Below are positions 3,092 to 37,937 of a stretch of 64,000 bases of DNA, piece after piece. The stretch is from Aerococcus urinaehominis. GTDB taxonomy: Bacteria > Bacillota > Bacilli > Lactobacillales > Aerococcaceae. The stretch lies in NCBI RefSeq assembly GCF_001543245.1, contig NZ_CP014163.1:1470387-1534386 (forward strand). Reading direction: 5' to 3'. The position numbers and the translations under genes were made by a program. The notes under the pieces are model-generated. The model was not told the DNA's origin. It did not search any database and was given only the letters and a program-made list of their open reading frames with translations. Every line of letters starts with the position of its first letter. Position 1 is the stretch's first letter.

Positions 3092-3142
3092 TATCTGTTC
3101 TTGTTTATAATTTTGAATAACTTCTTTATTATAGCTAACTTA

Positions 3143-9186: not shown

Positions 9187-9204
9187 AAGACAGAAGGTGA
9201 AGGG

Positions 9205-9681: not shown

Positions 9682-9693
9682 GGGGATATAGAT

Positions 9694-10893: not shown

Positions 10894-10908
10894 AAAAGAG
10901 GGAGGCTT

Positions 10909-11553: not shown

Positions 11554-11565
11554 GAGGAGAAAAAT

Positions 11566-12060
11566 ATGGAAAAAGATCAGCTAGACCAAGCTGAAAACAA
11601 GGCTATAAGCGCAGATAGCTCCAGCCTACATGCCCTTAGGGTCTTCTTACAAGCCCAGGCACATATAATGACCCTGATTTATCGTGATATGCGCCAGCAG
11701 GGTTTGAGTGAAAATGAGTTTACCGTTTTAGAACTTTTGTACCACAAGGGAAGTCAACCGGTCCAGAAAATTGGCCGTAAAATTATGATTGCTGGTTCAA
11801 GTTTAACCTATGTTATTGACCAACTGGAAAAAAAACAGTTTGTGAAGAGGCAGGTCAGCGATCGTGACCGGCGGGTGATTATGGTACACATTACTGATGA
11901 GGGGCGGGAAAAAATGGCAGATATTTTTCCTAACCACCATCATACCATCGAAAAAATGTTCAGTGTTTTATCAGATGAAGACTTAGTTGAATGGGTTAAT
12001 TTATTAAAAAAAGTTGGCTTCAATGCGGAAACATTGAGCCAAGAATGTCCTAAAAAATAG
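11566..12060 (+). CDS. MarR-family transcriptional regulator
   Basis: A 164-residue winged-helix regulator. The DNA-binding part spans about residues 55-120: FTVLELLYHKGSQPVQKIGRKI, recognition helix SSLTYVIDQLEKKQFV, then the wing RQVSDRDRRVIMVHITDEG, the DxR(R) signature of MarR. Ligand and target are unknown. Ribosome binding site AGGAGG is 9 bases upstream, and only 12 bases separate it from dnaD, so it is co-transcribed with that operon and closed by the terminator at 12071. The following gene has its own weak promoter. Such regulators usually control an adjacent gene, but nothing beside it is an obvious efflux or stress target. Confidence 0.88.
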   Translation: MEKDQLDQAENKAISADSSSLHALRVFLQAQAHIMTLIYRDMRQQGLSENEFTVLELLYHKGSQPVQKIGRKIMIAGSSLTYVIDQLEKKQFVKRQVSDRDRRVIMVHITDEGREKMADIFPNHHHTIEKMFSVLSDEDLVEWVNLLKKVGFNAETLSQECPKK

Positions 12061-12070
12061 TTTTAGCGAA

Positions 12071-12101
12071 AAAGTGGTTGGCAATTCCAACCACTTTTTT
12101 T
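12071..12101 (+). terminator. Rho-independent terminator after marR
   Basis: An 11-bp stem AAAGTGGTTGG / CCAACCACTTT with a five-base loop is followed by T residues. Confidence 0.9.
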
Positions 12102-12128
12102 CTACTACTAGGGGTGTGACTAGCCTTA

Positions 12129-12137
12129 TGGTATGAT
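12129..12137 (+). promoter_or_regulatory. Extended -10 promoter of the YunD-like gene
   Basis: TGGTATGAT, an extended -10, lies about 30 bases before the gene at 12166. No good -35 is seen. Confidence 0.4.
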
Positions 12138-12165
12138 AAGCTTATGAGAGTTAAGGGGGTAAATT

Positions 12166-13533: not shown

Positions 13534-13536
13534 TTG

Positions 13537-14202
13537 ATGGCAGAACACAAAAATAAGCAAGAACTAGCCAGGGAGCGTGTTGCCCTTGACTATCCGCTGG
13601 CGGAAATTCACAGAGTAAGTGAAGACCGAATCACTATCAATGGACAGTATTTTAGCCTAATTAGGACCTATGGACGTGGTTTAGACCTAGATCATCTTAG
13701 TGAACGTTATACAGATTATTTAGACCAATTTGATTATATCGTCGGTGATTGGAGCCATGACCAGCTACGTTTACGTGGTTTCTATGACAATGACATGCGT
13801 GGAGTTGCGTTGAATCAAAAGATTCGTTTTTTAGATGACTATCTTTTGGAGTATTGTAGTTTCGCTTGTCCGTATTTTGTTTTAGGACATGAACGCAGTG
13901 CCAGTGAAAAAGCAGACAACCAAGCCCAAATATTAAAACAACGTCGCAAAGATAACCGTAGCCAGCATAAAAAGCCAAGGAAGCGGCGGTCTAATCGGCG
14001 GCATTTTGACAAAAGTAAGTCAAATTATAGTCACAAGAATAATAACCAGTCAGCTGGTCATACAAAGAACCAGTCCAAGTCGGCTAATAAAAAGAATCAT
14101 TACCACAAACGTCAGCGTCAAGACCAGGTTAAACCAGCCAGTAAGTTGATTAAACAGGATGAAAAATCACGCTTTATCATTAAAGAGAAGGGGGAGGCTT
14201 AA
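13537..14202 (+). CDS. yutD: YutD family protein with long basic tail
   Basis: The first 125 residues match the YutD (DUF1027) family: INGQYFSLIRTYGRGLDL, FDYIVGDWSHDQLRLRGFY and the FLDDYLLEYCSFACPYFVLGH end. Function is not established. The last ~95 residues are low-complexity and strongly basic, full of Lys, Arg, Asn, His, Ser and Gln (KSNYSHKNNNQSAGHTKN), which suggests RNA binding but this is inference. The TTG at 13534 is only 3 bases from AAGGAG, so the ATG at 13537 is chosen. The gene begins right after the YunD-like stop, and the HAD gene follows directly: a tight operon. Confidence 0.8.
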   Translation: MAEHKNKQELARERVALDYPLAEIHRVSEDRITINGQYFSLIRTYGRGLDLDHLSERYTDYLDQFDYIVGDWSHDQLRLRGFYDNDMRGVALNQKIRFLDDYLLEYCSFACPYFVLGHERSASEKADNQAQILKQRRKDNRSQHKKPRKRRSNRRHFDKSKSNYSHKNNNQSAGHTKNQSKSANKKNHYHKRQRQDQVKPASKLIKQDEKSRFIIKEKGEA

Positions 14203-14203
14203 G

Positions 14204-15019
14204 ATGTCTCTAGGCTTATTAATTGATTTAGATGGCACCCTCTATCGAGGCCAACAGGAAATTACTGGCGCACGTGATTTTGTAGCCCGACTAAACGAGC
14301 GGGGCTGCCCACACCTGTTCTTAACCAATAATGCGACGCGTACCCACCAGCAAGCGGCCAGCTTTTTGCAGGATGTTCATGAAATTGCTGTTAGACCAGA
14401 TCAATTCTATACATCGGTTGATGCCTTGCTGGCCCAGTTAGACCGGGATGGCAGGGAATTAAATGGGCGAGATGTCTATGTTATTGGCGCCCCTTATCTA
14501 AAAGATAGTTTGCGACAGGCAGGTGCCCATATTTACGATCAAGCTGGTCATTCAGAGAAAGAGACTGTTGATTTGGTTATTATGGGATTAGACCAAGGAG
14601 TGTGCTATGGCCAATTAGCGCAAGCTTGCAAATTTATAGAAGCAGGTAGTCAATTCTATTTAACTAATCCAGATGTCCAGTACCCCGAAGCGAATTATTT
14701 CGTGCCTGGAGCGGGCGCTTTGGCGGATATGGTCAGCCAGGTTACTGGGCAAGCTCCAACTACATGTGGCAAGCCCAGTCCGGCAATTGTCGATGGTGCG
14801 ATTGATAAGCTTGGCCTAGCCAAGCACCAAGTTTATATTCTAGGTGATAACTTAACCACGGATATCCAGGCAGGTATTAATGCTGGCGTTAAGACTATTC
14901 ATATAGGAACAGGTGTCCACCAGCAAGCGGACCAAACCAAGTTAGGCATTCAGGCGGACTATTATGTGCAAGATTATCAGGAGCTTGACCAACTATGGCA
15001 AAAATTAGTTACTATATAA
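14204..15019 (+). CDS. HAD-superfamily phosphatase (YutF/NagD type, TIGR01457)
   Basis: A 271-residue HAD-IIA hydrolase. The nucleophile motif LLIDLDGTLYRG is at the N-terminus (D8 and D10), LFLTNNAT near 45 is motif II, GKPSP near 190 holds the motif III lysine, and GDNLTTDIQAG near 218 is motif IV. A longer in-frame ATG at 14159 would add residues encoded inside yutD and lacks a ribosome binding site. The ATG at 14204 has GGGGAGG 7 bases upstream and starts just after the yutD stop. Members hydrolyse small phosphates such as p-nitrophenyl phosphate in vitro; the natural substrate is unknown. Its end overlaps the next gene by 25 bases. Confidence 0.85.
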   Translation: MSLGLLIDLDGTLYRGQQEITGARDFVARLNERGCPHLFLTNNATRTHQQAASFLQDVHEIAVRPDQFYTSVDALLAQLDRDGRELNGRDVYVIGAPYLKDSLRQAGAHIYDQAGHSEKETVDLVIMGLDQGVCYGQLAQACKFIEAGSQFYLTNPDVQYPEANYFVPGAGALADMVSQVTGQAPTTCGKPSPAIVDGAIDKLGLAKHQVYILGDNLTTDIQAGINAGVKTIHIGTGVHQQADQTKLGIQADYYVQDYQELDQLWQKLVTI

Positions 15020-15630
15020 AATTCATTGTGCTGATGTTGGCTATGCTGGCTTTAGCTATTAGCTTGACAATTGCTTTATCTCCAGCAATCTTTTATGTGA
15101 ATATGAAATTAGGCCTCATTCAGCCAGTTTTAAATTTTAGCCAGGCAGAAATTTTAAGTGATTATGGTCAAATGATGGCTTATTTACACAGCTTTACCCG
15201 CCAGCCACTAAGTTTTAACTATTTCGCTATTTCTACTGCTGGCGCTTTCCATTTCTATGAAGTGCGGCGTTTATTTTATTTAGTCTATGTCTGCCTGTTT
15301 GTTTTGGGCCCCTATACTATTTACCAAGTCAAGCATGGTTTTTTTGAAGAGTGGGCATGCCATATCAAGCGGGATATTAAAAGGCTGATAGTATTTTTAA
15401 TAGGCTTATTAGTTTTATTAGTTTTGAACTTTTCTCGGTTCTTTACCCTTTTCCACCAGATTTTCTTTAATAACAATGCTTGGATTTTTGATCCCAGAAC
15501 AGATCCGATTATACTAGTCTTGACGGAAGGCTTCTTCTTGCAATTATTTGCTTTAGCCTTATGCATTTTCCTAGGTGGATTAGCTTGGGTAAATTACTAT
15601 ATAAAAAAACCTGTGACTAAAATAAACTAG
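14995..15630 (+). CDS. TIGR01906 family integral membrane protein
   Basis: A 211-residue membrane protein with about five hydrophobic spans (near residues 8-32, 88-108, 124-145, 176-200) and the family-typical external segment with FHFYEVRRLF and FFNNNAWIFDPRTDPII. The family (DUF1461) is of unknown function and commonly lies next to YutF-type phosphatases in lactic acid bacteria, as here. It overlaps the HAD gene by 25 bases, so expression is coupled. The stop codon lies inside the stem of the bidirectional terminator at 15604. Confidence 0.8.
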   Translation: MAKISYYIKFIVLMLAMLALAISLTIALSPAIFYVNMKLGLIQPVLNFSQAEILSDYGQMMAYLHSFTRQPLSFNYFAISTAGAFHFYEVRRLFYLVYVCLFVLGPYTIYQVKHGFFEEWACHIKRDIKRLIVFLIGLLVLLVLNFSRFFTLFHQIFFNNNAWIFDPRTDPIILVLTEGFFLQLFALALCIFLGGLAWVNYYIKKPVTKIN

Positions 15631-15644
15631 TCACAGGTTTTTTT
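15604..15644. terminator. Bidirectional terminator between convergent genes
   Basis: A long inverted repeat, AAAACCTGTGACTA / TAGTCACAGGTTTT, is flanked by A on the left and T on the right. It serves both the rightward TIGR01906 gene and the leftward reductase gene. Confidence 0.88.
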
Positions 15645-15647
15645 ATG

Positions 15648-16649
15648 CTATTCGCCCTCAAAAAGAGTAGAGGAGTGAACGGGTGAGATCAGTTGGTCAG
15701 GATGGATATAACTAAAGGCTGCATTGATAGCAGTCGGGGCTTCCCCAAAACCAGAAACAATCAATTTGGTCTTGCCTGGGTAGCTAACTATATCGCCTAC
15801 AGCAAAGATACCAGGAATGGAGGTTTGCATATTTTCGTTAACCAAAATATTATTTTGTTGCAAGTCTAATCCCCAGTCTTTTATTGGTCCAATTGATGAG
15901 GTAAAACCATAGGCCATAATTACTTGGTCTACTTCTAAGTTAACTTGGTCATCACTGCGGCCTTTCTGGAGTTGTATTCCTGTTACATGTTGACCGTTAC
16001 CTACAATCTCAATGGGAACATAGGGGGTTAAAAAGCTGATATTGTTAGCCTTTTTGGCGATGGATACACTATGTTCATGGGCGCGAAAGCCGTCTCGGCG
16101 ATGAATGAGGTAGACTTGATCAGCTATATCCCGCAGGCCTAAAGCAGTGTCTAGGGCTGAGTCGCCACCACCACAGACAGCAACAGTTTTACCAATAAAT
16201 TGCTGATAATCACTAATAAAATAATCCAGGCCCAGCCCTTCGTATTGATCAGCACCAGCTAGCTTTACTTTCCGAGCTTTAAAAGAACCGTTGCCAGCTG
16301 CAATGATAACTGCCCTAACATGATAACTAGATTGAGAGCTGTGTACGATAAAGCTCCCATCTGCTTGTTTCTCTACAGCTTGTACCTCTTCTTCTAAACG
16401 AATATCAGTTGTATCAGCGAAGCGGCGTACCTGGTCAAATAGTTGGTTAGTGAGCTCTTCACCTGAAATGCGGGGATGGACTGGAATATCAAAAATATTT
16501 TTTTGCGGATAGAGGGCTTTGGGCTGACCGCCGATTTCTGGTAAGGAGTCAATTAGGGTCACTGATAAATTACGCATGCCGGCATAAAAGGCGGTAAAAA
16601 GACCCACTGGACCGGCACCGACGACGAGTAAATCACTTTTTTTATTCAT
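15648..16649 (-). CDS. Ferredoxin/flavodoxin-NADP+ reductase, thioredoxin-reductase-like (YumC type)
   Basis: A 333-residue flavoprotein. The FAD-binding GxGxxG is VVGAGPVGLFTAFYAG at residues 8-23, and the NADPH site is VCGGGDSALDTAL near 157. The C-terminus has the FAVGDIV motif near 290. It lacks the CxxC of thioredoxin reductase, which marks the YumC-type ferredoxin-NADP+ reductase. Ribosome binding site AAGGAT precedes the start on the minus strand. It reads toward the bidirectional terminator and lies 19 bases downstream of the PAP2-like gene, so the two are likely one leftward operon. The physiological partner could be a ferredoxin or flavodoxin; neither is in the window. Confidence 0.88.
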   Translation of the reverse strand: MNKKSDLLVVGAGPVGLFTAFYAGMRNLSVTLIDSLPEIGGQPKALYPQKNIFDIPVHPRISGEELTNQLFDQVRRFADTTDIRLEEEVQAVEKQADGSFIVHSSQSSYHVRAVIIAAGNGSFKARKVKLAGADQYEGLGLDYFISDYQQFIGKTVAVCGGGDSALDTALGLRDIADQVYLIHRRDGFRAHEHSVSIAKKANNISFLTPYVPIEIVGNGQHVTGIQLQKGRSDDQVNLEVDQVIMAYGFTSSIGPIKDWGLDLQQNNILVNENMQTSIPGIFAVGDIVSYPGKTKLIVSGFGEAPTAINAAFSYIHPDQLISPVHSSTLFEGE

Positions 16650-25133: not shown

Positions 25134-25137
25134 TTAT

Positions 25138-25210
25138 GGAGGATTAGCTCAGCTGGGAGAGCGTCTGCCTTACAAGCAGGATGTCGGGGGTTCGAACCCC
25201 TCATCCTCCA
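25138..25210 (+). tRNA. tRNA-Val (TAC)
   Basis: Cloverleaf with acceptor GGAGGAT/ATCCTCC, anticodon TAC in CTGCCTTACAAGCAG, and TTCGAAC T-loop. A73; no encoded CCA. Confidence 0.96.
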
Positions 25211-25221
25211 TTAATAATTAC

Positions 25222-25294
25222 GACTCGTTAGCTCAGTCGGTAGAGCAACTGACTTTTAATCAGTGGGTCGCAGGTTCGAATCCTGCACGGGTCA
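25222..25294 (+). tRNA. tRNA-Lys (TTT)
   Basis: Acceptor GACTCGT/ACGGGTC with one G-T pair; anticodon TTT in ACTGACTTTTAATCAGT. A73; no encoded CCA. Confidence 0.96.
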
Positions 25295-25303
25295 TTATAG
25301 TAC

Positions 25304-25385
25304 GCGGGTGTGGCGGAATTGGCAGACGCACCAGATTTAGGATCTGGCGCCGCAAGGCGTGGGGGTTCAAGTCCCTTCACCCGCA
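25304..25385 (+). tRNA. tRNA-Leu (TAG)
   Basis: Class II tRNA with long variable arm (GCGCCGCAAGGCGT); acceptor GCGGGTG/CACCCGC; anticodon TAG in CAGATTTAGGATCTG. No encoded CCA. Confidence 0.96.
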
Positions 25386-25400
25386 CTATATTTTTATTTT

Positions 25401-25473
25401 GCCGGCTTAGCTCAGTTGGTAGAGCATCTGATTTGTAATCAGAGGGTCGAGGGTTCAAGTCCTTTAGCCGGCA
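25401..25473 (+). tRNA. tRNA-Thr (TGT)
   Basis: Acceptor GCCGGCT/AGCCGGC; anticodon TGT in CTGATTTGTAATCAG. A73; no encoded CCA. Confidence 0.96.
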
Positions 25474-25480
25474 CTCTTAC

Positions 25481-25552
25481 GCGGAAATAGCTCAGTGGTA
25501 GAGCACCACCTTGCCAAGGTGGGGGTCGCGGGTTCGAACCCCGTTTTCCGCT
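25481..25552 (+). tRNA. tRNA-Gly (GCC)
   Basis: Acceptor GCGGAAA/TTTCCGC; anticodon GCC in CACCTTGCCAAGGTG. Discriminator T; no encoded CCA. Confidence 0.96.
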
Positions 25553-25578
25553 TATTGCCTTTTATTTTATCGGCTTAG

Positions 25579-25664
25579 GCCGGGGTGGCGGAACAGGCAG
25601 ACGCACAGGACTTAAAATCCTGCGAAGGTTAAACTTCGTACCGGTTCGATTCCGGTCCTCGGCA
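25579..25664 (+). tRNA. tRNA-Leu (TAA)
   Basis: Class II tRNA with a long variable arm (CGAAGGTTAAACTTCG); acceptor GCCGGGG/CCTCGGC; anticodon TAA in AGGACTTAAAATCCT. No encoded CCA. Confidence 0.96.
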
Positions 25665-25676
25665 TTTATATATTAA

Positions 25677-25750
25677 GCACCCATGGCTCAACTGGATAGA
25701 GTACCTGACTACGAATCAGGCGGTTGCAGGTTCGAATCCTGCTGGGTGCA
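25677..25750 (+). tRNA. tRNA-Arg (ACG)
   Basis: Acceptor GCACCCA/TGGGTGC; anticodon ACG in CTGACTACGAATCAG, expected to be edited to ICG. A73; no encoded CCA. Confidence 0.96.
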
Positions 25751-25753
25751 TAC

Positions 25754-25827
25754 CGGGAAATAGCTCAGCTTGGTAGAGCACTTGGTTTGGGACCAAGGGG
25801 TCGCAGGTTCGAATCCTGTTTTCCCGA
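25754..25827 (+). tRNA. tRNA-Pro (TGG)
   Basis: Acceptor CGGGAAA/TTTCCCG; anticodon TGG in TTGGTTTGGGACCAA. A73; no encoded CCA. Confidence 0.96.
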
Positions 25828-25858
25828 TAACTTTGGTAGTGATACCTGAGTATAAGAT

Positions 25859-25932
25859 GGCGGTGTAGCTCAGCTGGCTAGAGCGTCCGGTTCATACCCG
25901 GGAGGTCGGGGGTTCGATCCCCTCCGCCGCTA
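25859..25932 (+). tRNA. tRNA-Met (CAT), elongator type
   Basis: Acceptor GGCGGTG/CGCCGCT, with a G1-U72 wobble as I recall for Bacillus elongator tRNA-Met. Anticodon CAT in CCGGTTCATACCCGG. No encoded CCA. Confidence 0.9.
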
Positions 25933-25949
25933 TTATTGACTTTGAACTT

Positions 25950-26023
25950 GGACCTTTAGCTCAGTTGGTTAGAGCAGACGGCTCATAACCGTCCGGCCGT
26001 AGGTTCGAGTCCTACAAGGTCCA
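25950..26023 (+). tRNA. tRNA with CAT anticodon, probably tRNA-Ile2 (lysidine)
   Basis: Acceptor GGACCTT/AAGGTCC; anticodon CAT in GACGGCTCATAACCGTC. The body resembles the Firmicutes isoleucine-2 tRNA whose C34 TilS converts to lysidine, and it is neither the initiator nor the elongator Met sequence seen beside it. Identity Met cannot be excluded from sequence alone. No encoded CCA. Confidence 0.8.
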
Positions 26024-26032
26024 TTATATTTT

Positions 26033-26122
26033 GGAGGATTACCCAAGTCCGGCTGAAGGGAACGGTCTTGAAAACCGTCAGGCGTGTAAAAGCGCGCAAG
26101 GGTTCGAATCCCTTATCCTCCT
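26033..26122 (+). tRNA. tRNA-Ser (TGA), copy 1
   Basis: Class II tRNA, acceptor GGAGGAT/ATCCTCC; anticodon TGA in ACGGTCTTGAAAACCGT; long variable arm. Identical to the copy at 26687. Discriminator T, whereas serine tRNAs usually have G73. No encoded CCA. Confidence 0.95.
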
Positions 26123-26147
26123 TACCTTATAAAGGTAGTATTATTAT

Positions 26148-26220
26148 CGCGGAGTAGAGCAGTTGGCAGCTCGTCGGGCTCATAACCCGGAGGTCGCAGG
26201 TTCGAATCCTGTCTCCGCAA
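26148..26220 (+). tRNA. tRNA-fMet (CAT), initiator, copy 1
   Basis: Initiator hallmarks: C1-A72 mismatch at the acceptor end (CGCGGAG/CTCCGCA) and three G-C pairs in the anticodon stem (GGGCTCATAACCC). Identical to the copy at 26837. No encoded CCA. Confidence 0.95.
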
Positions 26221-26230
26221 TTACTTATTA

Positions 26231-26303
26231 GGTCCCGTGGTGTAGCGGTTATCACGCCTGCCTGTCACGCAGGAGATCGCGGGTTCGATTCCCGTCGGGA
26301 CCG
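26231..26303 (+). tRNA. tRNA-Asp (GTC), copy 1
   Basis: Acceptor GGTCCCG/CGGGACC; anticodon GTC in CCTGCCTGTCACGCAGG; G73. Identical to the copy at 26920. No encoded CCA. Confidence 0.96.
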
Positions 26304-26310
26304 TATATAT

Positions 26311-26381
26311 GCGGGTGTAGTTTAGTGGTAAAACTACAGCCTTCCAAGCTGTTGTCGCGAGTTCGATTCTCGTCACCCGCT
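26311..26381 (+). tRNA. tRNA-Gly (TCC)
   Basis: Acceptor GCGGGTG/CACCCGC; anticodon TCC in ACAGCCTTCCAAGCTGT. Discriminator T; no encoded CCA. Confidence 0.95.
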
Positions 26382-26405
26382 TTACCATATAATATATATT
26401 GTAAT

Positions 26406-26479
<74 letters not shown>

Positions 26480-26484
26480 TAAGT

Positions 26485-26572
26485 GGAGAATTACTCAAGA
26501 GGCTGAAGAGGACGGTTTGCTAAATCGTTAGGTCGCGTTAGCGGCGCAAGGGTTCGAATCCCTTATTCTCCA
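26485..26572 (+). tRNA. tRNA-Ser (GCT)
   Basis: Class II tRNA; acceptor GGAGAAT/ATTCTCC; anticodon GCT in ACGGTTTGCTAAATCGT. A73, again not the usual serine G73. No encoded CCA. Confidence 0.95.
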
Positions 26573-26587
26573 TATTTTATTTACCAT

Positions 26588-26659
26588 GGCCCGTTGGTCA
26601 AGCGGTTAAGACACCGCCCTTTCACGGCGGTAACACGGGTTCGAGTCCCGTACGGGTCA
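26588..26659 (+). tRNA. tRNA-Glu (TTC), copy 1
   Basis: Acceptor GGCCCGT/ACGGGTC with a G-T pair; anticodon TTC in CCGCCCTTTCACGGCGG. Identical to the copy at 27097. A73; no encoded CCA. Confidence 0.95.
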
Positions 26660-26686
26660 TTGCTACAATTGAATGAATAGCATCTT

Positions 26687-26776
26687 GGAGGATTACCCAA
26701 GTCCGGCTGAAGGGAACGGTCTTGAAAACCGTCAGGCGTGTAAAAGCGCGCAAGGGTTCGAATCCCTTATCCTCCT
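26687..26776 (+). tRNA. tRNA-Ser (TGA), copy 2
   Basis: Identical over 90 bases to the gene at 26033, including the unusual T discriminator. Confidence 0.95.
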
Positions 26777-26836
26777 TACTAGTCTATTGACTAGGGAGCC
26801 ATTGTGCATCTTTATGTACATTGAACCTTTGATTAC

Positions 26837-26909
26837 CGCGGAGTAGAGCAGTTGGCAGCTCGTCGGGCTCATAACCCGGAGGTCGCAGGTTCGAATCCTG
26901 TCTCCGCAA
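26837..26909 (+). tRNA. tRNA-fMet (CAT), initiator, copy 2
   Basis: Identical to the gene at 26148, with C1-A72 mismatch and GGG/CCC anticodon stem. The following spacer and tRNA-Asp are also identical to copy 1. Confidence 0.95.
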
Positions 26910-26919
26910 TTACTTATTA

Positions 26920-26992
26920 GGTCCCGTGGTGTAGCGGTTATCACGCCTGCCTGTCACGCAGGAGATCGCGGGTTCGATTCCCGTCGGGACCG
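26920..26992 (+). tRNA. tRNA-Asp (GTC), copy 2
   Basis: Identical to the gene at 26231. Confidence 0.96.
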
Positions 26993-27005
26993 TAATTATT
27001 TTTTA

Positions 27006-27078
27006 GGTCCGATAGCTCAGTTGGTAGAGCACGTGATTGAAGCTCACGGTGTCGGCAGTTCGACTCTGTCTCGGACCA
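27006..27078 (+). tRNA. tRNA-Phe (GAA)
   Basis: Acceptor GGTCCGA/TCGGACC; anticodon GAA in CGTGATTGAAGCTCACG. A73; no encoded CCA. Confidence 0.95.
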
Positions 27079-27096
27079 TTTCTTATTTTTATATTT

Positions 27097-27168
27097 GGCC
27101 CGTTGGTCAAGCGGTTAAGACACCGCCCTTTCACGGCGGTAACACGGGTTCGAGTCCCGTACGGGTCA
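27097..27168 (+). tRNA. tRNA-Glu (TTC), copy 2
   Basis: Identical to the gene at 26588; last gene of the array, followed by the terminator at 27174. Confidence 0.95.
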
Positions 27169-27173
27169 TCGCT

Positions 27174-27200
27174 AAAAGCCTAGCTATGCTAGGCTTTTTT
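27174..27200 (+). terminator. Terminator of the rRNA-tRNA operon
   Basis: An 11-bp stem, AAAAGCCTAGC / GCTAGGCTTTT with a TAT loop, runs into T residues. Confidence 0.92.
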
Positions 27201-27256
27201 TACTGTTTTTTTACTGTTCTTAATGGTTTCACCCGGTTGACGAAAGGGCTTTCTTG

Positions 27257-27270
27257 CCTTAAATTTAAGG
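27257..27270. promoter_or_regulatory. Perfect 14-base palindrome before citD (candidate operator)
   Basis: CCTTAAATTTAAGG is a perfect palindrome adjoining TATAAG (27271-27276), a possible -10, 27 bases before the citD start. Just upstream, CGAAAGGGCTTTCT (27241-27254) resembles a CcpA cre site but lacks the central CG. In Enterococcus the citrate genes are under a GntR-type activator (CitO) and CcpA, so an operator role is plausible but inferred. Confidence 0.5.
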
Positions 27271-27295: not shown

Positions 27296-27589
27296 ATGGA
27301 ATTAAAACATCAAGCGATTGCTGGCACTTTGGAGTCCTCTGATATCCAAGTGATTGTTGAACCTCATGATCAAAGAGAGATTAATTTAACCTCTAGTGTG
27401 ATTGATCAGTTTGGCGACCAGATTTATCAAACTATTGAAAAAACTTTAGATAACTTAGAAATACAGGGGGTTAAGTTGACTGCGGATGATCATGGTGCCC
27501 TAGATTGTACCATTCGTTCTCGGGTGCAAACTGCAGTTTTTCGTGCGCTTGACCAAGATAAAGATTTACCATGGGGGACTAAAATATGA
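27296..27589 (+). CDS. citD: Citrate lyase acyl carrier protein (gamma subunit)
   Basis: Carries the 2'-(5''-phosphoribosyl)-3'-dephospho-CoA prosthetic group on which citrate is handled by the lyase complex. The 97-residue protein has the family N-terminus with Ser14 in GTLESSDIQV, the residue modified in the Klebsiella protein, and the C-terminal RSRVQTAVFRAL segment. Ribosome binding site AAGGAGGAAG precedes ATG. It overlaps citE by four bases and begins the citDEF operon, behind the palindrome at 27257. Its activation needs the CitG, CitX and CitC proteins, all encoded further along the locus. Confidence 0.95.
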   Translation: MELKHQAIAGTLESSDIQVIVEPHDQREINLTSSVIDQFGDQIYQTIEKTLDNLEIQGVKLTADDHGALDCTIRSRVQTAVFRALDQDKDLPWGTKI

Positions 27590-28479
27590 GAAGAGAAGTA
27601 AGACGGACCATGATGTTTTTGAATGCCCAACGAGCCTCTCTAGTTAAGGATCCTTATGTTTACGGTCCAGACTGTGTAATTTTAGACCTGGAAGATGCGG
27701 TATCAATTAATGAGAAAGATTCTGCTCGTATTCAGCTCTATAATACCTTGATGGATCTAGACTACGGTGAAACTGAGATTTGGGTAAGAATTAATGCGCT
27801 TGATTCACCTTATTATGAAGAAGACATTCGCGCAGCGGTAGCAGGTGGCTGTGACGGCATCCGTATTGCAAAAACTGAAACTGCCGATGATGTGCGTTTA
27901 GTTGAGCGTTTAATTGAGGAAGCTGAAAAAGAATTTGGAAAAGAAGTAGGCTCAACTATGATTATGGGTGCGATTGAATCACCTTTGGCTGTTTTTAACG
28001 CCAAGGATATCGCTGTCGCTTCAGAACGGATGATGGGAATTGCTTTATCCGCTGGTGATTTTCGTAGTGAAATGCATGCCCAGTCTACACCGGGTGGTGA
28101 AGAGTTGGCTACTGCTCGCGGCATGATTCTAATGGCCGCTAGAGCAGCTGGCATCATGGCCTTTGATACGGTGTATACGGATGTAGATAATATCGAAGGT
28201 TTAATTAACGAAACTGAAATGATTTTTAATATGGGCTTTGATGGTAAATCCTTGATTTCACCAAAACAAATTAAACCTGTTCATCAAGTCTTTACACCGA
28301 CTGAAAAAGAAATCCGTCATGCGGAACGGATTATCTTAGCAATTAAAGAAAACGAAAAACGTGGTGTAGGTGTGCTTGTTGTTGACGGTCAAATGGTCGA
28401 TATAGCCCATGTTGAAGGGGCCAAGCGTACCCTAGCCTTAGCCCAAGCATCAGGTATTTATGAGGGGGATTTAGCATGA
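27586..28479 (+). CDS. citE: Citrate lyase beta subunit (citryl-ACP lyase)
   Basis: Cleaves citryl-ACP to acetyl-ACP and oxaloacetate. A 297-residue HpcH/HpaI-type barrel with the N-terminal RRTMMFLNAQRASLVKDPYV, metal-binding LEDAVSINEKDSAR near residue 35 and the IWVRINAL strand near 65; the MGAIESPLAV strand is near 126. Length is standard. It overlaps citD and citF by four bases each, so the three subunits are translationally coupled in equal amounts. In Enterococcus the same subunit order is found within a longer citC-citX operon; here citC and citX are 8 kb away. Confidence 0.95.
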   Translation: MRREVRRTMMFLNAQRASLVKDPYVYGPDCVILDLEDAVSINEKDSARIQLYNTLMDLDYGETEIWVRINALDSPYYEEDIRAAVAGGCDGIRIAKTETADDVRLVERLIEEAEKEFGKEVGSTMIMGAIESPLAVFNAKDIAVASERMMGIALSAGDFRSEMHAQSTPGGEELATARGMILMAARAAGIMAFDTVYTDVDNIEGLINETEMIFNMGFDGKSLISPKQIKPVHQVFTPTEKEIRHAERIILAIKENEKRGVGVLVVDGQMVDIAHVEGAKRTLALAQASGIYEGDLA

Positions 28480-30017
28480 AAAACGCAATAGGCAGAGAGA
28501 TTCCAAATGAGTTATTGGTCGATGGAAAAGAAGTTTTCCAAGGCGCATACGCTAGACAAGATTATGAGTATACTAAGGCAGCACCACGAGTAAAGGCCAA
28601 TGTCCATAATGATGAGAGTAAATTAGTTAGTTTAGAGGAAGCTATCAAGAAAACTGGTCTGAAAGATGGTATGTGTGTGTCTTTCCACCACCACTTCCGT
28701 AATGGGGATTATACCCTACCAACAGTAATGAAGGCCATTCATAATTTAGGTATTAAGGACCTGTATATTTGTGCTTCTAGTTTAGGACGAGCAGCTAAGG
28801 ATATCGTGCCAATGATTGAAGATGGCACAGTAACTGGCATTTCTACTTCTGGGGTTCGTGATGAATTAGGTGAAGCAATTTCTCGTGGCAAACTGAAACA
28901 TCCTGCTATGATTCGGACTCATGGTGGCCGGGTAAGAGCCATTGAATCTGGAGAAGTCCATATTGATGTTGCCTTTATTGGCGCTCCTACTGCAGATGAA
29001 TTGGGTAATGCATCCGGTAAAGGCGGTAATTCTGAGTGTGGTGTGTTATCATATGCTGATGTGGATGCTAAGTATGCTGACCATGTGGTTGTGTTAACTG
29101 ATACTATCGTACCTGTACCTAATAAATCAGCTTCAATAGAAGCTGTAGATGTTGATTATGTTGTAGAAGTCGATGCAGTTGGTGATCCATCTAAGATTGC
29201 TTCAGGGGCAATTCGTTTAACGGATGATCCACGCGAATTGGCTATTGCTGAACAAGCAGCTGAGGTAATTGTCAATACAGAATACTTTAAAGATGGTTTT
29301 AGCTTCCAAACAGGTGCTGGGGGACCTTCTCTAGCGGTTACACGTTTCATGAAGCCACATATGGATGCTAAGGATATCAAGATGGGCTTTGCCTTAGGTG
29401 GTATTACAGAACCAATGGTTGACCTGTTAAAAGAAGGTTACATCCGTACTATTCTTGATACACAAGACTTTGATATTCCATCGGTAGAGTCAGTTCATAA
29501 TACGCCTAATCATGTTGAAATTTCTGCATCCCAGTATGCTAACCCCTTCAACAAAGGTGCTTATGTAAACTATCTAGACTATGTTATCCTAGGGGCATTA
29601 GAGGTCGATACTGATTTCAATGTTAACGTAGTTCAAGGTTCTGATGGCTTGATTCAAGGGGCTCCAGGTGGTCACCCAGATACAGCAGCCGGTGCTAAAG
29701 TGACTATTATTGTCACCCCATTGATTCGTTCTAGGATTCCTTCTGTAACTGATCATCTTACTTCAGTAACCACGCCAGGTGAAACAGTTGATGTTGTGGT
29801 CACTGACTATGGTGTGGCAGTTAACCCACGCCGACAAGACTTGATTGACCAGTTACAAGCAGCTGGTATGAAGTTGAAAACAATTGAAGAATTACGCGAT
29901 ACGGCCTATAATATAGTTGGTAAGCCGGCACCGATTGAATTTGATGATGAGGTCGTAGCAATGATTGAATACCGCGATGGTACCATCATTGATACTATTC
30001 GTAAGTTAAAAGACTAA
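28476..30017 (+). CDS. citF: Citrate lyase alpha subunit (citrate:acetyl-ACP transferase)
   Basis: Swaps acetate for citrate on the acyl carrier protein. The 513-residue protein is the usual length, with an N-terminal PNELLVDGKEVFQGAY, GMCVSFHHHFRNGDYTLP near residue 69 and the glycine-rich GGNSECGVLSYADVDAKY block near 184. The C-terminal half has SDGLIQGAPGGHPDTAAGAK near 390. No frameshift or truncation. It is the last gene of citDEF and is followed by a clear terminator, so the regulator-CitG gene downstream needs read-through or its own promoter. Confidence 0.96.
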   Translation: MKNAIGREIPNELLVDGKEVFQGAYARQDYEYTKAAPRVKANVHNDESKLVSLEEAIKKTGLKDGMCVSFHHHFRNGDYTLPTVMKAIHNLGIKDLYICASSLGRAAKDIVPMIEDGTVTGISTSGVRDELGEAISRGKLKHPAMIRTHGGRVRAIESGEVHIDVAFIGAPTADELGNASGKGGNSECGVLSYADVDAKYADHVVVLTDTIVPVPNKSASIEAVDVDYVVEVDAVGDPSKIASGAIRLTDDPRELAIAEQAAEVIVNTEYFKDGFSFQTGAGGPSLAVTRFMKPHMDAKDIKMGFALGGITEPMVDLLKEGYIRTILDTQDFDIPSVESVHNTPNHVEISASQYANPFNKGAYVNYLDYVILGALEVDTDFNVNVVQGSDGLIQGAPGGHPDTAAGAKVTIIVTPLIRSRIPSVTDHLTSVTTPGETVDVVVTDYGVAVNPRRQDLIDQLQAAGMKLKTIEELRDTAYNIVGKPAPIEFDDEVVAMIEYRDGTIIDTIRKLKD

Positions 30018-30028
30018 ACTATGCTAAC

Positions 30029-30070
30029 AGGCAAGCCTGCTGTCTTAGGAAGCGGGCTTGCCTTATTTTT
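30029..30070 (+). terminator. Terminator after citF
   Basis: Hairpin AGGCAAGCCTGCT / AGCGGGCTTGCCT (one G-T pair) with a nine-base loop precedes an A/T-rich, T-dominated tail. Confidence 0.8.
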
Positions 30071-30102
30071 ATTTTAGAAAATGATGTAGGGACGGTGAAA
30101 TT

Positions 30103-31749
30103 ATGGAAAAATTTGCCTATTTGCAAGAATATATTCAAAAAGGATCCAAGCGGGGCGGGACGACACTCAGCCAAATCGTTTTTGAAGCCTTGCGGGTAGC
30201 GATCCTAGCCGGCCAAATTCCAGTCGGCGAACGAATTAATGAAAAGGTTTATGCTGATCAATTGAATATTTCGCGGACACCTATTCGTGATGCCCTTCGT
30301 CGGTTAGAAGATGAAGATTTAGTAGAATATATTCCGCGCGTGGGAGTAACTGTTAAGAAATTTACCGTTAAAGATGTTCAGGAAATTTTTCAACTTCGTC
30401 AAGCCTTAGATTATTTAGCGACGATTAGTGCCGCACAAAATATGACTAATGAACAGTTTGATGATATGGAAGCTAATTTTAAATCTTCTGAGCTAGCATA
30501 TGACCAAGCAGACGATGAGGCCCTCAACCGTTTGTTTGGTGAATTTAATAACTATATATACAGTTATGCTGATATGCCACGCTTATATGGCATTGTCAAA
30601 AGGTTACGTGAATACCTGGATCGTTTCCGCCGCATTTCCTTAGAAGGAGACCAAAGACGGCGAAAAGCCTTGGATGAGCACTGGCTTATTTATCGCTATA
30701 TGCGGGCCCGAGATTTTGACAAAATTAAGGTGATTGTGACTAACCATTTGATGGAAGCTGAATACCACATCGCTCAAGTTATCAGCCAAGATTTAGAGAT
30801 TAGTCTAGACCAACCCAGTCAACTCGTTATGGGTCAACTGTTAGTTTACAATCAGCAAGCGACTGAGAATAATCAACAAATTTGTGACCAAGAAAACCTA
30901 GTCAAAGACTTGAGCAATTTGGCTCTAGAAAGTGTGTTGGAGGAGGCTAGCCTTACCCCAAAACCTGGCTTGGTTGATGCTCTTGATGCAGGGGCTCATG
31001 ATGATATGGATTTAACTACCTTTATTCGGTCTAGTTTATCCTTGCAAGCTTATTTTGAGGCCGCTGCGCAACTGGGATATGCTGATAAGTCGGCCAAAGC
31101 CATTTTTAACAGTTTGCGTCAGCTAGGCATTGAAGCCGAGCAGTCTATGTTTGCAGCTACTCAAGGTGTTAACACCCACAAGGGCGTCATCTTTAATATG
31201 GGTGTATTTTTAACTGCTAGTACAGCTTGTTTACGCGATTATGGTCAAGCTAATTTATCTAGCCAAGCATTTTTAGCCAAGGTCTATGCCTACTTACGAC
31301 AAATGTTAGCTGGGCTGATTACTAATGATTGGCAAGATTTGGCTAGTAAAGAGAAGCTAACGCATGGAGAACGGGTCTATCTAGAACATGGTATTGCCGG
31401 CATCAGACGCGAGGCTGAGCTAGGCTATCCTACTGTTCAGGCCGGCTTTTATCAGTATCAGTTATTTAAAAAGAGTCATCCAAAAACTGCCAAAATCCGT
31501 TGCTTAATTTATTTGATGGCTTATGTAGAAGACACTAATGTCATCAAGCGGGGAGGTATGATGGGCTATAACTGGTTGCAGGTTTCTTGTCGTAATTTGA
31601 CAGCTGCTAACCTAGATGACCAGGCTTTCCTTGACCAGGTTAACCACCTCAATAAAACCTGCAAGCGCCGTTGGATAAGTCCGGGTGGAGCAGCTGATTT
31701 ATTGAGTGTCGTTTTATATTTGGATAAGTTTACAGACTTTCTTGCTTAA
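30103..31749 (+). CDS. Fusion of GntR/FCD transcriptional regulator and CitG (triphosphoribosyl-dephospho-CoA synthase)
   Basis: One 548-residue reading frame with two complete parts. Residues 21-85 are a GntR winged helix (GERINEKVYADQLNISRTP, then IRDALRRLEDEDLVEYIPRV); 92-228 form an all-helical FCD/FadR-type ligand domain with H193 and H215 in metal-ligand positions but Asn-Asn where FCD proteins often have a third His. A Gln-rich linker (about 229-266) joins it to CitG at 267-548. CitG landmarks are all present: TPKPGLVD (285-292), GAHDDMD, GVNTHKG (355-361), DTNVIKRGG and SPGGAADLL. CitG makes the prosthetic-group precursor from ATP and dephospho-CoA. CitO of Enterococcus is a GntR/FCD activator of citrate genes, so the head is probably a CitO counterpart. 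The nearest in-frame internal ATG (30829) has no ribosome binding site. Confidence 0.9.
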   Translation: MEKFAYLQEYIQKGSKRGGTTLSQIVFEALRVAILAGQIPVGERINEKVYADQLNISRTPIRDALRRLEDEDLVEYIPRVGVTVKKFTVKDVQEIFQLRQALDYLATISAAQNMTNEQFDDMEANFKSSELAYDQADDEALNRLFGEFNNYIYSYADMPRLYGIVKRLREYLDRFRRISLEGDQRRRKALDEHWLIYRYMRARDFDKIKVIVTNHLMEAEYHIAQVISQDLEISLDQPSQLVMGQLLVYNQQATENNQQICDQENLVKDLSNLALESVLEEASLTPKPGLVDALDAGAHDDMDLTTFIRSSLSLQAYFEAAAQLGYADKSAKAIFNSLRQLGIEAEQSMFAATQGVNTHKGVIFNMGVFLTASTACLRDYGQANLSSQAFLAKVYAYLRQMLAGLITNDWQDLASKEKLTHGERVYLEHGIAGIRREAELGYPTVQAGFYQYQLFKKSHPKTAKIRCLIYLMAYVEDTNVIKRGGMMGYNWLQVSCRNLTAANLDDQAFLDQVNHLNKTCKRRWISPGGAADLLSVVLYLDKFTDFLA

Positions 31750-31796: not shown

Positions 31797-32543
31797 ATGT
31801 TATTAACAGGTAAGGTAGCAATTATCACTGGCGCTGGTTCTGGTTTTGGTAAAGCTTCAGCAGATCGTTTCGGCCAGGAAGGTGCCAAACTCGTTTTAGT
31901 CGATATTAACCAGGCTGATTTAGATGCAACAGTCGCAGAATTTGAAGGCAAAGGTTATGATGTGTTTGGTATTGTTGCTGATGTCAGTGTTGAAGCCAAT
32001 GTCCAAGCCTTTATTGAAGATGCTGTGGCCCATTTTGGTCAATTAGACATCATCTTTAATAATGCAGGTATTTACCACTATGGCAATGCGGAACAATTAC
32101 CAACTGAACAGTGGCAACAAGCAGTAGCGATTAACCAAACGGCTATCTTCTGGGCGGCTAAATATGCCATGCCACACTTGAAAAAGAGCCAAGGTACCAT
32201 GATTAATACGGCTTCAGCTGGCGGCTTAATCGGTTTCCCTGATGCAATTGCTTATGCAGCGACTAAGGGGGCTGTGGTTTCAATGACTAGAGCATTGGCT
32301 GTTGACTATGCCAAAGATAAGGTACGGGTGAATGCAATCTGTCCTGGTACGGGTGTCACAGGTATGACTAGTGAACTATTAGAAGACGATCAAGTGGCAG
32401 AAGGTTTCTTAGCGCCTATCCCATTAAAACGTTTTGGTCAACCAGAAGATGTGGCTAATGCAGCCCTGTTCTTGGCTAGTGACCAATCTAGCTATATTAC
32501 TGGCCACTGCCTACCAGTTGATGGTGGCTGGACCATGTCTTAA
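31797..32543 (+). CDS. Short-chain dehydrogenase/reductase, unknown substrate
   Basis: A 248-residue classical SDR. NAD(P)-binding TGAGSGFG is at residues 12-19, NNAG at about 88-91, catalytic Ser in NTASAGG near 138 and the Tyr-x-x-x-Lys in AYAATKGAV near 155. D36 after the second strand (LVLVDIN) favours NAD+. The C-terminus has YITGHCLPVDGGWTM. It follows the regulator-CitG gene by 47 bases, with a possible extended -10 (TGTTAGAAT, 31753-31761) between. Members include acetoin/diacetyl reductases, which would suit citrate-derived pyruvate, but the sequence does not decide the substrate. Confidence 0.85.
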   Translation: MLLTGKVAIITGAGSGFGKASADRFGQEGAKLVLVDINQADLDATVAEFEGKGYDVFGIVADVSVEANVQAFIEDAVAHFGQLDIIFNNAGIYHYGNAEQLPTEQWQQAVAINQTAIFWAAKYAMPHLKKSQGTMINTASAGGLIGFPDAIAYAATKGAVVSMTRALAVDYAKDKVRVNAICPGTGVTGMTSELLEDDQVAEGFLAPIPLKRFGQPEDVANAALFLASDQSSYITGHCLPVDGGWTMS

Positions 32544-32629: not shown

Positions 32630-33973
32630 TTATTGTGGAATATAGATACGCATATGGCCAAGTAAGGCAATTGTTACAACAAAAATCAGAAAGACAACTA
32701 CTAACCATTTACCAGATTCTTTTTGCCATTCACCCATATCTAGGTCGAGTAGACGAAGTAGTAGATAGATAAAGGCAACTAGTGGACTTAGTAAGTGGAA
32801 GGCTTGTCCCATTAGGGAAGCTAGGGCCATTTCCATATTGGTAAAGCCATATGAGGCACCAATCTCTGCAAGTGGTGGTAGGATACCGAAGTAGAAACCA
32901 TCATTTGAGATAAAGAAGGTACCAGGTGCAGAAACAAGGGCAATCACAAGAGCCCAAACTGAACCTAATTGTTGTGGAATAATATGGATAAAGCTTTGTG
33001 CTAGCGCATCAGCCATACCTGAGCCTTGGAATAGACCCATGAAGATACCAGCACCAAATACTAAGATAACAACAGAAACAGCATCACCAGCGTTGTCAGC
33101 AATCCGTTTACCTTGGTCTTTAAGGTTAGGATAGTTAACCACCAGAGCGATACAGGTACCAACCATGAAGAGTAGGACTGATGGCAATTCTAGACTCTCA
33201 ACAAATGAACCAGTGATTAACCAGCCGACTAAGATAATCGTTAGAATTAGGTTGAACCACCAATTTTGTGGTCGACGAATAGCTACTAGCTCTGGATCAG
33301 TAATATTGGTTAATTCTTCAACTTCTGCTTCAGAGAATTCAACAATACCTAAACGTTCTCTTTCGCGACGCCCCATAGTTGGAGCAACAATAAAGATAAC
33401 GTAAAGAAGTGAGATAATCATGCCAGGGAAGAGGTAGGCTAGGATATCAGCGCCAACTTCCATAACGGCCATGGCCCGAGCAGTTGGGCCGCCCCATGGT
33501 AAGAGGTTCATGATTGTGTTTTGCATAATAATCAAAACACCAAGGTTCATCACCCGCATGTTAAGCTTCTTATAAATTGGTAAGAAGGCAGACACACAAA
33601 TCAGGGTCGTAGTTGTACCGTCACCGTTTAAAGAGACCGCAGCTGCTACAACAGCAGTAGCCATTAAGACCTTGAGTGGGTCACCGCCAGCAAAGCGAAT
33701 CATGGCTGCTGTGATGGGGTCGAAAAGACCTGCGTCAAGCATGATTGAGAAATAGAGAATTGCGAATAATAGCATAATCCCAGTATTAGCAGTTGTGGCC
33801 ACCCCATCCATTACCCAAGTGGCGATGTCTGTATCAGGGGAAGCACCAGTGACCATGGCAATCACGGCAAAAACTAGAGGGACAAGAACTAAGGCAGTAA
33901 AGGGCGTCATCTTTTTCTTCAAAATAACGTACATGAAGACGATGATCATTGCCCATGATAAAAAGGTAATCAT
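32630..33973 (-). CDS. CitMHS-family citrate transporter
   Basis: A 447-residue membrane protein with about eleven to twelve hydrophobic helices. It has the CitMHS family signature SLNGDGTTTTLICVSAF near residue 114 and IMQNTIMNLLPWGGPTAR near 148. Bacillus CitM/CitH and Enterococcus CitH of this family import citrate complexed with divalent metals. A cytoplasmic loop near residues 200-225 is acidic (ERERLGIVEFSEAEVEEL). It is transcribed away from the oad operon and shares a control region with it. Ribosome binding site GGAGGAGAAAAT precedes ATG. The symbol is left blank because citM and citH are used inconsistently. Confidence 0.88.
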   Translation of the reverse strand: MITFLSWAMIIVFMYVILKKKMTPFTALVLVPLVFAVIAMVTGASPDTDIATWVMDGVATTANTGIMLLFAILYFSIMLDAGLFDPITAAMIRFAGGDPLKVLMATAVVAAAVSLNGDGTTTTLICVSAFLPIYKKLNMRVMNLGVLIIMQNTIMNLLPWGGPTARAMAVMEVGADILAYLFPGMIISLLYVIFIVAPTMGRRERERLGIVEFSEAEVEELTNITDPELVAIRRPQNWWFNLILTIILVGWLITGSFVESLELPSVLLFMVGTCIALVVNYPNLKDQGKRIADNAGDAVSVVILVFGAGIFMGLFQGSGMADALAQSFIHIIPQQLGSVWALVIALVSAPGTFFISNDGFYFGILPPLAEIGASYGFTNMEMALASLMGQAFHLLSPLVAFIYLLLRLLDLDMGEWQKESGKWLVVVFLIFVVTIALLGHMRIYIPQ

Positions 33974-34106: not shown

Positions 34107-34222
34107 CAAGCTTAATCTTTACAAAAACATTAGAAAAACAATCTGTGAAATAATATACAAATGCCCATAAATTGAACAAGGAAAAAACAACCTAATTGCC
34201 AAATTTTTGTCATAATAGGATT

Positions 34223-36328: not shown

Positions 36329-37366
36329 TTGATAACTATCGAACTAGTAGTAAGACAAATGTGGGTTGAGCGATCATCATTTGATCGTCAGGCCTGGCTT
36401 AACTTGTTGACCAGTGCCGGACTAAGACCCGAAGCCCAGTTAGATGAAACCATTGGTCTTTATGATGGAGACCGATTGGTAGCGACGGGGTCGCTGCAAG
36501 CGAATGTTATGAAATGTTTGGTGGTCTGCCAAGCTTATAAGGGTGGCGCTGTGATGAACCAGTTGGTAACGGAGTTACTAAACCGTATCTACCAAAAAGG
36601 GTATCAAAAGGCTTTTGTCTATACTAAACCTAGCTCGGCCCAATCCTTTAGCCATTTGAATTTTAATACTCTGATTGCGACTGATCAGGTTGTCTTTATG
36701 GAAAGGGCAACAAACGGCTTCGATGACTATTTAGCTAGGCTTGGTCAAGATAGACCAAGTGGCGAGCGGATAGGGGCAATCGTAATGAACGCTAACCCTC
36801 TGACTAGGGGCCATCTTTATTTGATCGAATCAGCTAGAAGCCAGTGTGATATCGTACATGTTTTTGTCTTGTCAGAAGACCGATCACTTTTTCCAAGTCG
36901 GGTACGTTATCAGTTAGTCAAGGAAGCTTGCCAGGCTTGGCCAGATGTCTATGTGCATACAACTGATGATTACATGGTGTCACAAGCAACTTTTCCAGCC
37001 TATTTTCTGGCTGAGGATAAGTCAGTTACCCAAGCCCAGGCTGAGGTTGACGCTATGCTTTTCCGCGACCGCATTGCCCCAGTATTAGGCATTACTGACC
37101 GATTTGTCGGTACCGAGCCTTATTCAGAAAAAACAGCAATTTACAACCAAGCCATGGCAGCCTGTTTTGGTCAAGCTATTAACCTACATGTTATTCCACG
37201 TTTAGCTACCGACCAGGCAGAAGATTTTATTTCCGCCACTAAGGTACGAGAAAAGTTTCTGGCTGGAGATCTGGCAGGCCTGCAGGTATATCTACCGCAA
37301 GTTACCTATGATTTTCTTCAGTCACCAGCTGGGCAAGCTATTAGAGAGCAGGTTTTAAGTGATTGA
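36329..37366 (+). CDS. citC: [Citrate (pro-3S)-lyase] ligase
   Basis: Acetylates the thiol of the citrate lyase prosthetic group using ATP, which switches the enzyme on. The first 130 residues are an acetyltransferase-like domain and the rest is a nucleotidyltransferase with the NPLTRGHLYLIE motif near residue 155 and SATKVREKF near 303. Length 345 is normal. The annotated start is a TTG (LITIELVV) only 1-2 bases after AAAGGG, so the true start is uncertain; an ATG at 36359 lacks a ribosome binding site. It is placed in the oad operon, not beside citDEF as in many relatives. Its end overlaps citX by eight bases. Confidence 0.9.
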   Translation: MITIELVVRQMWVERSSFDRQAWLNLLTSAGLRPEAQLDETIGLYDGDRLVATGSLQANVMKCLVVCQAYKGGAVMNQLVTELLNRIYQKGYQKAFVYTKPSSAQSFSHLNFNTLIATDQVVFMERATNGFDDYLARLGQDRPSGERIGAIVMNANPLTRGHLYLIESARSQCDIVHVFVLSEDRSLFPSRVRYQLVKEACQAWPDVYVHTTDDYMVSQATFPAYFLAEDKSVTQAQAEVDAMLFRDRIAPVLGITDRFVGTEPYSEKTAIYNQAMAACFGQAINLHVIPRLATDQAEDFISATKVREKFLAGDLAGLQVYLPQVTYDFLQSPAGQAIREQVLSD

Positions 37367-37937
37367 TGACTATTTAAAAGCTCTGGCTAGTGGACCAGAG
37401 GTTGGCTTGGACCAGGTTCTAGCTAGCCGGGAGGCGCGCGCTAGTTGGCAAGAAAAATGTTTGAATCAACATCCAAAAGGCTCACTAATTGCTTTAAAGC
37501 TTAATATAGTGGGTCCGGTAAAAAATAACGACCTAATCGCTAAAATATTTGCCTTAGCCCAGGCTGATCTCGAAGCTAGCTTACAAGCAGCCGGTTTGAC
37601 CTATCAAAGTACAGCAATGGCTGATTTGGAAACTGGTCCTGAGGCCTTTTATCTGGTAAATGCAGCTGGTAACCAGGTCAAGAAATTGACAATGGAGCTA
37701 GAAAATCAGTTACCTTTGGCCCGTCTCTACGACCTAGACGTATTAGTGAATCATGCGGGTCAAGTGCAGGCCTTAAGTCGTCAAGATTTTGGCCAGTCGG
37801 CAAGAAGTTGCCTAGTGTGTGGCCAGGATGCTAAGGCTTGCGGTCGCAGTCGAAAACATGACCTGTCTATTATTAGACAGGCCATGGTTAAATTAATAGA
37901 AAAGGACGGGAGACTAGCAAATGTCGAAACAAATTAA
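37359..37937 (+). CDS. citX: Holo-ACP synthase of citrate lyase (apo-citrate lyase phosphoribosyl-dephospho-CoA transferase)
   Basis: Transfers the prosthetic group made by CitG onto CitD. The 192-residue protein has the EARASWQEKC start, LKLNIVGPVKNN near residue 45, and the diagnostic C-terminal RSCLVCGQDAKACGRSRKH. It starts with GTG inside citC and its end overlaps oadA by 17 bases. In several bacteria CitX is fused to CitG; here CitX is separate and CitG is fused to the regulator instead. Confidence 0.93.
   Translation: MIDDYLKALASGPEVGLDQVLASREARASWQEKCLNQHPKGSLIALKLNIVGPVKNNDLIAKIFALAQADLEASLQAAGLTYQSTAMADLETGPEAFYLVNAAGNQVKKLTMELENQLPLARLYDLDVLVNHAGQVQALSRQDFGQSARSCLVCGQDAKACGRSRKHDLSIIRQAMVKLIEKDGRLANVETN

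Follow-up and report, generated by a model that had tools for sequence, protein, structure and literature searches.

The subject of this analysis is a 64,000-nucleotide stretch of DNA from Aerococcus urinaehominis (NZ_CP014163.1, positions 1,470,387 to 1,534,386; hereafter the window), in which a gene located among the citrate lyase (cit) genes encodes a CitO-type transcriptional regulator and CitG, the triphosphoribosyl-dephospho-CoA synthase, in one open frame. It is a rare, real fusion of two known proteins, which other bacteria have as two neighbouring genes. The frame extends on the forward strand from the ATG at 30103 to the stop at 31749 (548 codons) and comprises a GntR winged helix-turn-helix (HTH; residues 23-84, 30169..30354; Pfam PF00392, 50.7 bits, cut-off 27), an FCD ligand domain (residues 94-216, 30382..30750; PF07729, 72.1 bits, cut-off 24.3), a variable linker predicted to be unstructured (residues 229-266, 30787..30900), and a CitG domain (residues 272-540, 30916..31722; PF01874, 230.5 bits, cut-off 27), all on the same strand. 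The succession of PF00392 and PF07729, both above cut-off, places the N-terminal half in the FCD (FadR) subfamily of the GntR superfamily, and the CitG part also exceeds the cut-off of the NCBIfam model citrate_citG TIGR03125 (283.4 versus 272.3 bits).

An uninterrupted GntR/FCD-CitG frame of 548 codons had been described in a first-pass annotation made from the letters of the sequence; with all three domains above the Pfam cut-offs and the frame open in two relatives this description is borne out, and its domain limits were correct. The frame has no internal stop in the genome of the window (G000; 1.83 Mb, one contig), and the fusions of two related genomes, G007 and G008, are open frames of 570 codons each, aligned at query residues 7-545 with 49% and 48% identity, respectively. 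Because the frame is open in all three genomes, a hidden stop or frameshift near codons 230-266, which the annotation had named as a point of possible failure, is very unlikely, and the recurrence of the same fusion in two further genomes at 48-49% identity excludes a sequencing error.

Directly upstream of the fusion gene, and likewise on the forward strand, are citD, the citrate lyase acyl carrier protein (27296..27589; PF06857, NCBIfam citD), citE, the beta subunit (27586..28479; PF03328; TIGR01588 at 373 bits, under the cut-off of 443.4), and citF, the alpha subunit (28476..30017; PF04223, TIGR01584). Downstream lie the gene of the CitMHS citrate transporter on the reverse strand (32630..33973; PF03600, TIGR00784), the oad genes and, on the forward strand, citC, the citrate lyase ligase (36329..37366; TIGR00124), and citX, whose product transfers the CitG product to CitD (37359..37937; TIGR03124). 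The regulator is thus located with citrate lyase genes, as CitO of Enterococcus faecalis is located among cit genes. A terminator-like hairpin with a U-rich tail, possibly an attenuator, occupies the gap between citF and the fusion gene (30030..30076, forward strand; fold z -4.2); it was not among the terminators listed by a simple terminator scan. In G008 a hairpin of other sequence, again with a U-rich tail, is found at the same place (L060:16012-16110; z -3.0), and such an element may keep the level of the regulator-enzyme below that of the lyase. The gene row of G008 reads oadHDB-citC-citX-oadA-citDEF-fusion, the fusion being the last cit gene; the gene order of G007 agrees with this from citC onwards, and its oad genes and citMHS lie in a neighbouring stretch. 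In the window, citDEF and the fusion gene form a separate unit with a predicted operator of its own.

Distribution and origin of the fusion

A survey of 76 genomes of the family, including 15 of the genus, yielded the fusion in G000, G007 and G008, and only the same three of the 15 genomes of the genus bear citF. Of 395 genomes drawn evenly from the order, 134 contained CitG and three of these a GntR-CitG frame; within the samples searched, the taxonomic spread, which the first-pass annotation had proposed to map, comes to three genomes of one genus. Ten CitG genomes of the order draw have frames of 465-497 codons, and the one inspected (G089) proved to be a CitX-CitG fusion; the CitG of G284 was masked, and that of G012 is a fragment. 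In a phylum sample CitG occurred in 18 of 398 genomes, with a frame longer than 487 codons only in the genome of the window, and in a class sample of 398 genomes the only full-length match to the fusion came from that same genome (the family, order, phylum and class samples overlap one another).

In 32 of 35 relatives' loci, selected as best matches and not drawn at random, the GntR gene and citG are separate, adjacent and on the same strand, and in these 32 pairs the stop-to-stop frames overlap by 11-116 bases, with citG one frame off; the two genes are on opposite strands in two loci, and the GntR gene stands alone in one. Since regulator gene and citG are already overlapping neighbours in most of the relatives' loci inspected, the linkage of their functions is of old standing, and the novelty lies in the covalent joining alone. 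The genes of the adjacent citO-citG pair of Streptococcus equi (NZ_CP134539) overlap by 8 bases, and locus tags 3134-3135 of Carnobacterium maltaromaticum are such a pair as well (PMC8537297, excerpted text); both organisms have the same two functions side by side, but in two genes. In trees calculated for the domains (34 rows each) the three fused proteins form one clade, with support of 99/91 and 100/100. The simplest history, and the probable one, is a single fusion event in a citO-citG pair whose frames overlapped.

In contrast to the fusion, E. faecalis CitO is a regulator only, according to the excerpted text of PMC4746285, and in that organism citO belongs to citHO and citG to the other operon, at its far end (PMC3198936, excerpted text). 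PMC10798043 likewise assigns CitG and CitX to two genes and counts CitO among the GntR regulators. Compared with free-standing CitG (PF01874, TIGR03125), the domain is full-length, above both cut-offs, and matches 3h9p in fold, but it is joined behind a regulator. CitG is also fused in the CitX-CitG proteins of G555, G1023, G975 and G089; there, however, CitG is joined to the enzyme that follows it in the pathway and not to a regulator. In line with the first-pass annotation, which named no described system of this kind, no report of a GntR-CitG fusion was found in the titles and abstract openings searched, a range that left most subscription papers outside, and protein databases may show the architecture.

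The two halves and their predicted operators

E. faecalis CitO senses citrate together with a divalent metal ion; R97 and H191 are essential, and the metal is surrounded by N147, H191 and H213 (PMC4746285, excerpted text). Taken by number from that text, and not by alignment, the six pocket residues R97, F143, N147, H191, H213 and L214 all recur in the window protein at a constant offset of +2, as R99, F145, N149, H193, H215 and L216. The likeness to CitO includes the GntR HTH, the FCD domain and the equal spacing of the R/F/N/H/H/L pocket, and because the FCD domain retains the citrate/metal pocket, citrate is the likely signal.

Comparison of G007 with G008 gave dN/dS ratios of 0.053 for the HTH, 0.029 for FCD, 0.038 for CitG and 0.455 for the linker, the last value being based on 9 changes. 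Between the window protein and that of G007, 50 of 66 HTH residues are identical, as opposed to 5 of 35 aligned residues in the linker, which is also predicted to be unstructured (pLDDT <50 at residues 225-261). Judged by these values, both halves are maintained by purifying selection and the linker is hardly constrained, which fits two loosely tethered, functioning domains better than a rigid signalling joint. A second CitG was not found in the genome of the window, either with the whole fusion as query (E up to 0.001) or with the CitG part (E up to 1e-15); the remaining three whole-fusion matches were weak and confined to the GntR part.

A candidate operator was derived from eight cit upstream regions (two of the window, two of G153, and one each of G008, G068, G002 and S. 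equi). The motif is a direct repeat, TGTT-N7-TGTT, with a period of 11, written TGTTYTTTTNNTGTTYTT. Upstream of citD it occurs without mismatch (27204..27221, forward strand), the only perfect match in the genome, and between citMHS and oadH with one mismatch (34123..34140, reverse strand). These direct repeats replace the binding sites proposed earlier at 27257 and 34006, which are palindromes and were not found conserved in related cit promoters; that part of the first-pass interpretation fell, and a CitO-type regulator and CitG in one chain, both apparently functional, is the part that stood. A promoter-like pair lies 15 bases past the 27204 operator (27237-27265), but such pairs are no commoner there than in shuffled sequence.

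At ≤1 mismatch the genome of the window contains five sites, two of them inside the cit cluster; the cit-region share is one of four in G007, one of three in G008, two of four in G002 and two of 11 in G068 (G007 excepted, these genomes had also served in deriving the motif). In 15 independent loci the same threshold gave 13 matches, spread over nine of the loci. All were located in the 600-bp regions preceding cit genes (16,746 bases in all), with no match in the remaining 268,017 bases; shuffled upstream regions of these loci gave 0.065 matches on average and one at most. Seven of the 15 have paired sites (≤2 mismatches) 114-133 bp apart. Two predicted sites per region, as seen in several relatives, recall the O1/O2 operators of E. 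faecalis CitO, a likeness of site number.

Several results detract from this picture of a citrate-sensing activator with conserved operators. In G007 and G008 five of the six pocket residues are present, F145 not being kept; the CitO HTH residues Q64 and H74, mutated in the work excerpted from PMC4746285, are R and Y in the window protein; and the FCD part of the predicted structure is poor. Compared with CitF (79-80% identity) the fused proteins change faster (48-49%), although CitX and CitC diverge as much as the fused proteins (43-51% identity), and the number of changes behind the linker ratio is small, as given above. As for the operator, G153 matches the motif poorly and in shifted positions despite belonging to the derivation set, and six of the 15 independent loci have no site at ≤1 mismatch. 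Genome-wide site counts against a reversed control are 5/1 in G000, 4/3 in G007, 3/4 in G008, 4/3 in G002 and 11/6 in G068; as these totals are near those of the control, it is the position of the sites, not their number, that is unusual. The two matches of the reversed pattern in the 15 loci come from a single T-rich upstream region, that of L088. The 27204 site itself lies in T-rich DNA immediately after the terminator of a 22-tRNA array, and low complexity may therefore account for part of the signal.

A probable bifunctional chain

On balance the fusion is probably a bifunctional protein, a CitO-type activator and a CitG synthase made as one chain at a constant ratio, each keeping its ordinary role. 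In the proposed mechanism the gene would be translated as a single chain, in which the GntR/FCD activator is followed by a flexible tether of ~35 residues and then by the synthase. The FCD pocket would bind citrate and a divalent metal ion, whereupon the dimer would occupy the TGTT-N7-TGTT operators (27204 and 34123) and activate the promoters of citDEF-fusion and of citMHS/oad-citC-citX. From ATP and dephospho-CoA the CitG half would make the prosthetic-group precursor, CitX would load this product on CitD, and the terminator-like hairpin would temper the output of regulator and cofactor enzyme. With the fusion gene placed behind citF, activation may increase the regulator and the cofactor enzyme together, at a constant ratio. 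Most simply, the two halves would act independently.

A near-neutral joining by chance, in which overlapping neighbours lost the frame break and both halves work as before, stands at about even odds; it departs from the bifunctional reading only by denying a benefit of the fixed ratio, and the odds of the two overlap. In 32 of 35 loci the frames overlap and citG is one frame off, and a small indel is thus enough to join them; the variability and lack of structure of the linker, and the few genomes having the fusion, also fit. On the other hand, the fusion persists in two lineages in which divergence has brought the fused proteins down to 48-49% identity, and the frame is intact in spite of a fast-changing linker.

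Chains that combine a DNA-binding and an enzyme domain are familiar from BirA and NadR, which take the ligand of the enzyme as their signal (in BirA, too, a prosthetic group is involved), and from the GntR-aminotransferase regulators GabR and PdxR, whose aminotransferase-like domain is the sensor. The window fusion shares this combination; in contrast to all four it keeps a complete FCD sensor, to which the enzyme has been added. GabR and PdxR were matched in the fold search, through their HTH. By analogy with BirA, and as the first-pass annotation had suggested for the CitG reaction, binding of substrate or product to the CitG half might alter dimerization or DNA binding of the CitO half, and expression of the citrate genes would then follow how much dephospho-CoA, ATP or unloaded CitD is available. 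Such feedback is favoured by the covalent link between a regulator and the enzyme producing the prosthetic group of the lyase that the regulator controls, by the presence of no other CitG in the genome, and by the BirA and NadR parallels. It is nevertheless unlikely: a complete CitO pocket already supplies a signal, citrate, and a variable, weakly constrained linker with 5 of 35 residues identical and pLDDT <50 lends it no support. Equally doubtful is the corresponding two-input controller, in which FCD reads citrate and the CitG half reads the supply of cofactor (dephospho-CoA, ATP or product). If true, the citrate lyase genes would be on only when the lyase can receive its prosthetic group, and the protein would parallel BirA, by independent evolution, for a different carrier-protein cofactor.

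It is also improbable that the fusion, cut or re-initiated internally, works as two proteins. The unstructured linker would be open to this, and in G007 and G008, exclusively, the ATG at codon 282 is preceded by a purine-rich run with a Shine-Dalgarno pairing of -9.6 kcal/mol, although ~14 nt distant. This codon is inside CitG, however, and a start there would omit A274 and E281, invariant in a six-sequence alignment. Among in-frame ATG, GTG and TTG codons at residues 206-285 of the window protein the best pairing is -4.8 kcal/mol, compared with -9.3 kcal/mol at the annotated start, which agrees with the first-pass statement that no internal start with a ribosome binding site is present, and no start codon in this interval is shared in position by the three fusions. 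That one half is dead, leaving only a regulator or only an enzyme, is very improbable, since its support, a divergence faster than that of citF, is countered by dN/dS values of 0.03-0.05 in both halves, the intact pocket, the operators, a CitG above the TIGR03125 cut-off and a genome without another CitG.

In the fused protein, control of a pathway would be linked to the supply of the unusual cofactor this pathway needs. As natural relatives with split genes exist, the effect of joining regulator and enzyme on control can be tested. The case further points to neighbouring genes that overlap in frame as the starting point of such fusions, and the CitO family gains a testable operator motif.

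A second lyase and minor observations

A second lyase-like set of the same genome (L062, G000:C1:280001-300000, 9023-15666) consists of citF-citE-citD, divergent from a LysR-type regulator gene and citC, and adjoins a CstA-like transporter. No citG, citX or operator match (≤2 mismatches) was found in this 20 kb stretch. This second lyase, if active, would depend on the fused CitG. G012, in which no citF match was obtained, has a decayed cit locus (L063, G012:C4, 8690-9151) with C-terminal fragments of CitMHS and CitG head to head, adjoining oadD, oadB, citC, citX and oadA.

The 22-tRNA array of the window (25137-27221) ends in a terminator whose T-rich tail reaches the predicted citD operator. 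Elsewhere in the genome, two operator-like sites with one mismatch each lie on opposite strands before a pullulanase-like gene (L072, 4522-4573; G000:C1:1312522-1312573). Directly after the fusion gene, a short-chain dehydrogenase (31797-32543) scores above the meso-2,3-butanediol dehydrogenase cut-off and may, as a guess, serve the fate of citrate-derived pyruvate.
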